Shown in pieces: positions 15,251 through 17,382 of a stretch of 64,000 bases of DNA. The stretch's first letter is position 1. Every line of letters begins with the position of its first letter. A model generated the notes under the pieces. The model did not search any database. It was not told the origin of the DNA and saw only the letters and a list, made by a program, of their open reading frames with translations. Both the position numbers and the translations under genes were made by a program. Source of the DNA: Arthrobacter sp. FW306-07-I. Its GTDB lineage: Bacteria; Actinomycetota; Actinomycetes; Actinomycetales; Micrococcaceae. The stretch spans positions 1,488,001 through 1,552,000 of the forward strand of contig NZ_CP084550.1 in NCBI RefSeq assembly GCF_021800405.1, given 5' to 3'.

Positions 15251-15631
15251 ATGCGCAAAACCTTCGGCAGCGGATCCGTCTGGGAACAGACCCTCGGTTA
15301 CTCCCGTGCCGTCCAGGTGGACAACACCCTCTACATCTCCGCCACTGCGGCCAGCGGCGAGGACGGAGTGGTGGGCGATGACTTCTACACACAGACCCAG
15401 TACATCCTGCAGAAACTGGGCAAGGTCCTGGCCGACGCCGGCTTCGCCTACGAGGACGTGGTGCAGTCCAAGCTGTACCTGACGGACATCAGCAAATGGG
15501 AAGAAGCCGGCCGGGCGCACGGCGAGGTGTTCGCAAACATCCGCCCCACCCTCTCCCTGGTCCATGTGCTCCCGTTCCTGGACCCGAAGATGCTCGTAGA
15601 GATCGAACTGGTCGCCCAGAAGAGCGCCTAG
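15251..15631 (+). CDS. RidA/YjgF-family protein
   Basis: A 126-residue Rid-family protein. Members typically hydrolyse reactive enamine/imine intermediates from PLP enzymes. Visible family features are the N-terminal Tyr/Ser region (GYSRAVQVDNTLYIS), a central LADAGFAYEDVVQSKLYLTD helix-strand and the C-terminal MLVEIELVA. The usual catalytic Arg of RidA (the N-V-x-R context) is not clear, so it may be a non-archetypal Rid subgroup. The ATG at 15251 follows GAAAGG, and a TACAGT hexamer at 15210 could be its -10 box. Its TAG stop (15629-15631) lies inside the CCTAGG target duplication of the adjacent IS element and was left intact by the insertion. Confidence 0.93.
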   Translation: MRKTFGSGSVWEQTLGYSRAVQVDNTLYISATAASGEDGVVGDDFYTQTQYILQKLGKVLADAGFAYEDVVQSKLYLTDISKWEEAGRAHGEVFANIRPTLSLVHVLPFLDPKMLVEIELVAQKSA

Positions 15632-15632
15632 G
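15627..15632. repeat. Left target-site duplication of the IS481-family element
   Basis: CCTAGG, identical to 16705-16710. It fits the NCTAGN 6-bp target described for IS481. It contains the ridA TAG on the plus strand and the transposase TAG on the minus strand. Confidence 0.9.
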
Positions 15633-16596
15633 TGTATTGACCTGAGAGGTTGGTGACGCGGCTGGCCGGTGGCTGACCGTTGAGTGAGGTGTGGCCTCGA
15701 TGATGATTGTAATGATGGAGCCAGTCGGCGAAAGCGGCAACACGCTCGGCCTCGGAGGCGTAGGGACGGGCGTAGGCCCATTCGTCGAGCATGGTGCGGT
15801 TGTAGCGCTCGACTTTGCCGTTTGTCTGAGGCCTGTAGGGGCGGGTGCGTTTGTGCTTGATGTCCGGGCCCAGAGCGTCTTTGAATGCGTAGGAGCGGTA
15901 GCAGGATCCGTTATCGGTCAGGACCCGTTTGACAGTGATCCCGTGGGACTCGAAGTAGGCATTGGCGCGTTCCCAGAATCCGGCCGCAGTGTCCTTTTTC
16001 TCATCGGTCAGGATCTCCGTGTAGGCGAGCCTGGAGTGATCATCGACGGCGTTGTGCAAGAAGGCGTGACCCGGTCTCCGGTTCGCCGCGGTACCGGTCT
16101 TGTTCCGGTTTCCGGCGGCCCTGCCGACACTGCGGTGTCCGCCGCCGTCAGGGATCCGTCCAAGTTTCTTGATGTCGACGTGGACCAGGTCCCCGGGGCT
16201 GTGGTGCTCGTACCGGCGAATCACCCGGCCCGTGGCCCGGTCCATCCACGCCAGCCTCGCCAGCCCAAACCGGGACAGCACCCGGTGCACCGTGGAGGGG
16301 TGAATGCCCAGCAGATAGCCGATCCGTGCCGGGCCCCAGCGCCGGTTGACTCTGATCGCGACGATCCGCCGCTCCCGCCGCGTGGAGGTCCGACGCGGGG
16401 AGTTGATGGGCCGGCTGGAACGATCACCCGTCCCGTGCTCCCCGTGCTCCCGGTAACGGGCCGCCCACCGCGCTGCGGTCGTCACCGACACCTGGAACCG
16501 CTCAGCAGCACGGCGCAGCGGCCACCCGTCATCGACGATGCACCGGGCCAGCCGGAGCCGTCCCTTCGGCGTCAGAAGCGCGTTAGCATGGGACAT
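15628..16596 (-). CDS. IS481-family transposase
   Basis: A 322-residue DDE transposase. An N-terminal helix-turn-helix pair (residues ~12-110, WPLRRAAERFQVSVTTAARW and IHPSTVHRVLSRFG) recognises the element ends. The rve integrase core follows with Asp141 (VHVDIKK), Asp228 (TDNGS) and Glu263 (KVERYN), a 34-residue D-E spacing typical of the family. An AAGGAGG lies just upstream of the ATG at 16596. The reading frame has no stop inside the element: it ends ...TAC A at the IS tip and reaches TAG only in the CCTAGG target duplication, which supplies the last two bases of the final Thr codon and the stop. Confidence 0.95.
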   Translation of the reverse strand: MSHANALLTPKGRLRLARCIVDDGWPLRRAAERFQVSVTTAARWAARYREHGEHGTGDRSSRPINSPRRTSTRRERRIVAIRVNRRWGPARIGYLLGIHPSTVHRVLSRFGLARLAWMDRATGRVIRRYEHHSPGDLVHVDIKKLGRIPDGGGHRSVGRAAGNRNKTGTAANRRPGHAFLHNAVDDHSRLAYTEILTDEKKDTAAGFWERANAYFESHGITVKRVLTDNGSCYRSYAFKDALGPDIKHKRTRPYRPQTNGKVERYNRTMLDEWAYARPYASEAERVAAFADWLHHYNHHRGHTSLNGQPPASRVTNLSGQYT

Positions 16597-16704
16597 TGAA
16601 GACCTCCTTGTGGATCGGACTCTTAGACAAGCCCCACTCCACTTGGAGGTCTTCTTTTTGTCACCTAACCACGCCGCATGTTCCTAACCTCCGTGGTCAA
16701 TACA
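15633..16704 (-). mobile_element. IS481-family insertion sequence, intact, 1072 bp
   Basis: The element is bounded by terminal inverted repeats starting TGTATTGACC at both ends: 10 perfect bp, then about 19 of 25 matching. It is flanked by identical CCTAGG copies. It carries one transposase on the minus strand and an AAGGAGG ribosome binding site. It sits between the convergent genes ridA and the response regulator and breaks neither. Intact ORF, perfect target repeats and good end repeats suggest recent insertion. Confidence 0.93.
16680..16704. repeat. Right terminal inverted repeat of the IS
   Basis: Read inward it begins TGTATTGACC and shares GGAGGTT with the left end at 15633-15657 (about 19 of 25 bases match). 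Confidence 0.8.
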
Positions 16705-16710
16705 CCTAGG
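16705..16710. repeat. Right target-site duplication
   Basis: CCTAGG, the second copy of the 6-bp palindromic target. It leaves a 9-nt gap before the end of the response regulator gene. Confidence 0.9.
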
Positions 16711-16719
16711 CTTCCTGCC

Positions 16720-17382
16720 CTACCTTCCCGGCAGGCCATAGCGGTGCTCCGGCCTCCCGGTGGTCCCGTAGCGGAGCTGGATATCCACTGCGCCGTCGTC
16801 GGCCAGCGAAGACAGGTAGCGCTGGGCGGTTGCCCGCGAGACGCCCACGCGGGAGGCCACCTCTGCGGCAGAGTACTGCTCGCCCGGGGCCAGTGACTCC
16901 AGCACCGCCGCCTCGGTTGCCGAGCGGGGTTTCGACGACGGCGTGACGTCGCCCGGAATCAGCGACCGTTTGGCACGTTCCACCGCATCCTGGTCCAGTG
17001 CGCCCGGCTGGGCCAGGAGGCGCCGGTACCGGGCGTAGGAGCGCAGCTGCTGGGACAGCGACTCGGACGTAAAGGGCTTGAGCAGGTACCCCAGGGCGCC
17101 GCGGCGGAATGCCACCCGGACGGATGCGGCGTCGGAGGCAGCGCTGAGGATAATCGTGTCCACATCCAGCTGCTGGAGCAGGTCCAGGCCGGAGGCATCG
17201 GGAAGGTAGACGTCCAGCAGCACCATGTCAGGCCGCAGGCTGTGGATGGCCTGCAGCGCCAGCGACGCCGTGCCAACCGGGGCCAGGGCAAGGAAGCCCG
17301 CCACCGAGTCCACATAGGCGGCGTGCAGCTTGGCCACATGGAAGTCGTCGTCCACGATCAGAACCCGAAAATCGTCAGCCAT
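16720..17382 (-). CDS. Response regulator, CitB/DctR (DpiA) family
   Basis: A 220-residue protein. The N-terminal receiver domain (residues 1-125) has the acidic pair VDDD, the phospho-acceptor Asp in VLLDVYLPD (around residue 57), a Ser switch (ILSAAS) and LKPF Lys. The C-terminal ~60 residues form an unusual helix-turn-helix (YSAAEVASRVGVSRATAQRYL) as in DcuR/CitB-type regulators. It pairs with the sensor kinase gene, whose end overlaps its start by 8 nt. It likely activates the divergent CitMHS transporter in response to a di- or tricarboxylate. Confidence 0.94.
   Translation of the reverse strand: MADDFRVLIVDDDFHVAKLHAAYVDSVAGFLALAPVGTASLALQAIHSLRPDMVLLDVYLPDASGLDLLQQLDVDTIILSAASDAASVRVAFRRGALGYLLKPFTSESLSQQLRSYARYRRLLAQPGALDQDAVERAKRSLIPGDVTPSSKPRSATEAAVLESLAPGEQYSAAEVASRVGVSRATAQRYLSSLADDGAVDIQLRYGTTGRPEHRYGLPGR

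Follow-up and report, generated by a model that had tools for sequence, protein, structure and literature searches.

How can an insertion sequence (IS) settle on the last codon of a host gene and leave that gene readable, and where does its own transposase gene end when the element holds no stop codon for it? Both questions are raised by a locus in Arthrobacter sp. FW306-07-I. We analysed a window of this 4.56-Mb assembly (the window is the whole stretch of 64,000 nucleotides), in which an IS481-family element follows a ridA-like gene and is enclosed by two perfect copies of CCTAGG (Table 1). The TAG that ends the ridA-like open reading frame (ORF), at 15629–15631, and the minus-strand TAG that ends the transposase, seen as CTA at 15628–15630, lie on opposite strands of one and the same CTAG in the left copy. 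As a whole, the locus and its relatives are very probably explained by a CTAG-targeting IS481 element that borrows its stop codon from the target, and whose residence at host stop codons results from its preference for CTAG combined with the loss of harmful insertions.

The element and its borrowed stop codon

Members of the IS481 family have TGT...ACA terminal inverted repeats and are about 1 kb long. The window element agrees in its size, in its TGTATTGACC ends and in the pairing of 16 of the 20 terminal bases between its two ends, and the same TGT...ACA ends and approximate length are present in the relatives that we examined. Its inverted repeats are imperfect, with 26-nt arms (including 7 flanking bases) that match at 88%. 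At the left junction AAGAGCGCCTAGG is joined to the start of the element, TGTATTGACC, and at the right junction its end, GGTCAATACA, is joined to CCTAGGCTTCC. The transposase is encoded by one ORF that matches HTH_28, LZ_Tnp_IS481, rve and rve_3, i.e. at domain level a helix-turn-helix region and a DDE/rve integrase core. It scores 361.9 bits against the NCBIfam model NF033577 (transpos_IS481), above the family cut-off of 224. The nearest named matches of the element were found in Arthrobacter and Pseudarthrobacter.

No stop codon in the transposase frame lies within the element. The 3' end reads ...CAA TAC A/CC TAG, where the slash marks the element boundary: the final codon, ACC (Thr), takes two of its bases from the target, the stop codon takes all three, and the protein ends ...SGQYT. 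An earlier sequence-only reading of this DNA had described this arrangement, and its coordinates for the CCTAGG flanks, the element bounds and both stop codons are all right; the missing internal stop and the shared Thr codon were likewise read directly. The element is an active-looking member of the CTAG-targeting clade of IS481. Its transposase frame passes through the inverted repeat, exits the element and enters the duplicated target, where an N-CTAG-N site completes the final codon with two bases and then provides TAG as the stop. Since CTAG is self-complementary and is duplicated, a host gene ending in NC-TAG retains its stop codon whichever way the element is oriented, and two convergent genes that end on one CTAG both retain theirs.

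Table 1 Features of the locus, in positions of the window.
Feature	Position	Strand	Details
ridA-like host gene (Rid/L-PSP family), intact	15251–15631	plus	126 amino acids + TAG in left target copy
Left CCTAGG target-duplication copy	15627–15632		6 bp, sequence read directly
Transposase ORF	15628–16596	minus	322 amino acids + stop; NF033577, rve and LZ_Tnp_IS481 matches
IS481-family insertion sequence	15633–16704	minus	1,072 bp; ends TGTATTGACC / GGTCAATACA
Right CCTAGG target-duplication copy	16705–16710		sequence read directly
Response-regulator gene, convergent with ridA	16720–17382	minus	220 amino acids

Six complete copies of the element are present in the genome, five of them identical and one with a single mismatch. 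All six carry the 6-bp NCTAGN duplication that marks the CTAG-targeting clade (CCTAGG in three, CCTAGA or its complement TCTAGG in two, CCTAGC in one), and in all six the transposase stop begins 2 nt past the end of the element. Each copy also sits on the TAG stop of a Pfam-matched host gene. These genes encode a P-II regulator, an acyl-CoA thioesterase, RidA, a DUF3846 protein, an inositol-monophosphatase-family protein and a deaminase; three of them point towards the transposase gene and three share its direction. The proposal that the target completes the transposase and spares the host gene holds for all six. Being nearly identical, the six copies do not test the frame six times over; independent tests come from divergent relatives. 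The multi-copy, near-identical state suggests no more than recent activity of the element; the transposase is probably active.

A seventh copy (L007/L008/L271, G000:C1:1134209–1137925) is split in two by an insert of 2.6 kb, located after position 872 of the transposase strand, and keeps CCTAGG on both flanks. The same genome holds at least two other IS481-type elements, a 54–56% relative in five copies (L267–L271), of which the four analysed all end their transposase in the target, and a 45–48% relative in two copies (L281–L282) with its own TGA stop.

Stop borrowing among relatives

Relatives were taken from the best 80 of 556 matches and from chosen loci of further genome listings. Plasmid relatives came from 360 matching records, of which 60 were listed and 14 hand-picked for spread. 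The resulting 210 loci, our six included, were reduced by 13 duplicate places and by 8 loci with no stop in reach to 189 distinct, readable loci. In 140 of the 189, again with the six own copies, the target ends the transposase directly after ...ACA, at an NYTARN site (Y, pyrimidine; R, purine; N, any base). The targets of these borrowers are CTAG in 131 loci, CTAA in five, TTAG in three and TTAA in one. Non-CTAG targets, which had been named as a possible objection to the idea of a self-completing gene, do occur in these nine, and each of them still gives TAG or TAA. The target is proved by a 6-bp duplication in seven of the nine (L027, L031, L048, L241, L256, L259 and L320); L079 and L323 have no such duplication. 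Borrowing reaches down to about 41% transposase identity and includes Alpha- and Betaproteobacteria (L319, L322, L328, L324). Because the target bases vary, the last residue of borrowers is Thr, Ser, Ile or Asn (last codon ACC in 45, AGC in 35, ATC in 11, AAC in 9 and AGT in 3).

The other 49 loci comprise L043, with ATAG after the element end and no direct repeat; 25 loci whose element has its own internal stop and adjoins CTAG at its end, the frame-shifted L090 among them; and a remainder of 23, made up of broken copies, elements with recombined ends, deep relatives and L295, which has its own TGA and a GGTAGC repeat. In this tally the internal-stop class required CTAG by construction; a separate analysis located the ends by repeats.

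Internal stops are found at several distances from the window element. Relatives with 82–83% identity (L207–L214, L233–L235) carry an in-frame TAA 7 nt inside the element end, a 57–59% group (L225, L226, L244, L245) carries TAG at 7 nt, and the 43–46% relatives, which include two copies in the Arthrobacter genome itself (L281, L282), carry TGA at 8 nt. The sequence-only reading had expected every copy to end its transposase in the flanking CTAG and had held that relatives with their own internal stop would speak against it. The expectation is borne out by the six own copies and fails for the relatives just named, above all the 82–83% group. These TAA-form relatives also land on CTAG, with up to seven copies per genome, which tells against borrowing as something needed or designed. 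One genome (G101) has seven full-length copies of the TAA form, and therefore the tail that this form lacks seems dispensable for spread.

A tree of 99 transposases was built by a quick method with the last ten residues left out, and several of its long branches are unsure. Its rows exclude near-copies, L090 and the loci classed as other, save six labelled internal (L295 and five outgroup rows). The outgroup consists of these five deep relatives; the element end is convincing in L326 alone, where a repeat of 5 bp is present, and some internal labels (L330) may mark broken copies. On this tree at least six changes between the two stop states are needed, four of which well-supported branches make unavoidable. 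Most of the CTAG clade borrows its stop, and internal stops appear in several separate places.

We also joined the two ends of each of 64 distinct elements in a hypothetical head-to-tail junction. The frame of the window element stops there at the third codon, TGA. Across the set, a stop is reached within the first three codons in 28 elements and after 7 to 18 codons in 34, and two have none within the bases read. No frame constraint across abutted ends is visible in this set.

Does the supply of a stop codon dictate where these elements insert? Preference and borrowing could have evolved as one device, in which only CTAG-type sites complete the transposase; the wide spread of borrowing in the clade and the in-frame stop at all nine non-CTAG borrower targets are in line with this. 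The variant sites nevertheless make up the symmetric YTAR set, as recognition of a palindrome predicts, and ATAG and GTAG, which would give TAG equally well, are absent among borrowers with a 6-bp repeat (the ATAG of L043 has none). A copy of IS481 in Bordetella is also reported at a CTAA target (PMC3053399). The elements that do not need the target for a stop are divided. L295, 46% identical and with an internal TGA, is flanked by a 6-bp repeat, GGTAGC, that departs from the CTAG/YTAR sites at which the other repeat-defined insertions of its clade lie, as though a limit had been relaxed, but the other internal-stop elements keep CTAG in 20 of 20 direct-repeat-defined insertions (21 of 21 counting L090). 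We consider it very unlikely that stop supply drives target choice.

A borrowed end might also act as an integration check. Only copies in an NYTARN site would then make the normal C-terminus, and excised, rearranged or damaged junctions would give an altered one that damps activity. A natural example of a damaged copy is L229 (91% identical, full-length), whose right repeat has lost one base and whose transposase frame continues for 9 codons beyond its usual end. We regard such a check as highly improbable.

Insertions at host stop codons

The window element occupies the short gap between the convergent ridA-like and response-regulator genes, and the ridA-like protein matches Pfam PF01042 (E 2.8e-22). 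Matches to ridA were found in 144 of 150 genomes of the same genus, and the best 29 besides the window's own were read. No IS lies within 40 nt after the ridA stop in any of these 29 loci. The ORF has 126 or 127 codons in 28 of them, and L160 gave a stop at codon 76. An uninterrupted CCTAGG at the end of ridA had been anticipated for related genomes; the empty site and, in nine of the 29 loci, a CTAG at the ridA stop agree with this, while the exact CCTAGG was seen in 0 of 29.

Host-stop insertions were counted with a home-made gene caller in 123 of 166 loci, after exclusion of 42 with no 6-bp repeat, a short flank or a duplicate and of L266, which repeats L006. By this caller the 123 insertions comprise 61 at a host stop, 56 in intergenic DNA and six in coding sequence; for the 394 other CTAGs of the same flanks the numbers are 63, 266 (and one edge) and 64. 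The excess at host stops persists at three caller settings. A permutation within loci (106 loci) gave 34.5 expected host-stop insertions versus 52 observed, with p at most 5e-5. The two orientations are represented by 36 and 25 of the host-stop insertions analysed, and by three each in the Arthrobacter genome. A single CTAG serves as the stop of two called convergent genes at six of the 123 insertions, versus two of 394 sites in the background. In these double-stop cases (L024, L038, L078, L089, L097, L258) the duplication hands each convergent gene its own stop.

Elements with their own stop lie on host stops about as often (11 of 20, without L090) as borrowers do (50 of 101). Where convergent genes are no more than 150 bp apart, stops account for 26 of 30 insertion sites versus 23 of 24 background CTAGs. 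With limits of 150 and 300 bp and three caller settings, odds ratios range from 0.28 to 1.14 and p from 0.37 to 1. A weak excess that had pointed to stop-codon targeting in convergent regions vanished once the gap was limited. The target does complete the transposase in 140 of 189 loci, the six own copies among them, and this part of the sequence-only reading stands; that borrowing is needed or designed finds no support.

The same counts bear on a further possibility, an active search by the element for the ends of genes on top of its CTAG motif, be it for 3' ends, for convergent transcription or for stop codons. Its six own copies on host stops and the overall 61 of 123 versus 63 of 394 would fit such a preference. 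For stop codons as such, the lack of any difference in short gaps speaks against it, and 56 of the 123 insertions are intergenic by the caller. We hold active seeking of gene ends to be very unlikely. In the explanation that we prefer, the enzyme would want CTAG, harmful insertions would be lost, and the harmless CTAGs of GC-rich genomes would largely be the stops of genes. CTAG is rare in these genomes, and where it occurs in a short convergent gap it almost always forms a stop codon. The many insertions at host stops would then come from CTAG preference and the loss of harmful insertions, and we infer that the excess is owed to selection and not to a choice of target. In the window itself CTAG occurs at 25 sites versus 72 by dinucleotide expectation, about threefold rarer, and CCTAGG four times versus 8.15 expected.

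Several observations weigh against this explanation. The caller overlooked the host gene of one own copy: L005, counted among the six coding insertions, is at a host stop by Pfam, in a plus-strand gene. Random stretches of this genome have 34 of 143 CTAGs at stops, a higher share than the 63 of 394 in the flanks. In convergent regions without a gap limit, 37 of 49 insertions are at stops versus 29 of 55 background sites (p 0.024), which also speaks for a search for gene ends, and the background in short gaps is small (24 sites). Finally, short convergent gaps (at most 150 bp) hold 30 of the 123 insertions versus 24 of the 394 other CTAGs; this enrichment, too, could be cited for gene-end seeking, and it would result from either selection or a gap preference. 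A preference for convergent gaps or gene ends as such is possible.

Known systems and implications

Target-borrowed transposase stops and stops shared with the host are already in print (PMC2516522, PMC6794481). In ISLxc2 and ISLxx4 of Leifsonia xyli, both IS481 elements, the transposase stop lies within NCTAGN, for which the 2008 paper credits earlier work (PMC2516522). The window transposase ends in the same way; the accessible account of these two elements does not state that the stop of a host gene is the same CTAG (PMC2516522). In ISRe46 of Rhodococcus equi, described in 2019, CTAG gives the TAG of the transposase and the stop of some target genes, and the function of targets such as parB is not interrupted, owing to the shared CTAG stop (PMC6794481). 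The window element, with no internal stop and its transposase stop in the flanking repeat, is of the ISLxc2 and ISRe46 kind, and as in ISRe46/TnRErm46 one CTAG ends both transposase and host gene (PMC6794481). Unlike the simple IS of the window, TnRErm46 is a cargo transposon of 6.9 kb, and the match between its plasmid record and the window transposase is about 44%; the accessible ISRe46 account contains no count against a CTAG background (PMC6794481).

IS5564 (Tn5564; Corynebacterium and relatives; copy L317) has a transposase about 54% identical that ends in a TCTAGC target. This copy differs from the window element in its place next to a cmx gene and in that its ends showed no direct repeat. 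An IS1121-like element (L318) and the 43–46% relatives in the genus to which the window belongs are members of IS481, have CTAG beside the element end and similar inverted repeats, and differ from the window element in their own TGA 8–12 nt inside the end.

No count of host-stop insertions against the CTAG background was found in the accessible texts of the limited library searched. As far as these searches go, the numbers on the generality of borrowing are new, as are the several lineages without borrowing in which CTAG choice is mostly unchanged, and the explanation of host-stop residence best given by site availability and survival.

The analysis pulls apart two ideas that could readily be taken for one, the supply of the transposase stop by the target and harmlessness to host genes. 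The first is a habit across most of the CTAG clade that is missing in several lineages and is not obligatory. The second is best explained by the biology of CTAG together with selection. For annotation, an IS481-type transposase that has no stop within its element should not be called truncated, the ORF should not define the boundaries of the element, and genes that abut such copies may be intact. Pairs at 82% identity with and without an internal stop are natural material on whether a borrowed end matters.
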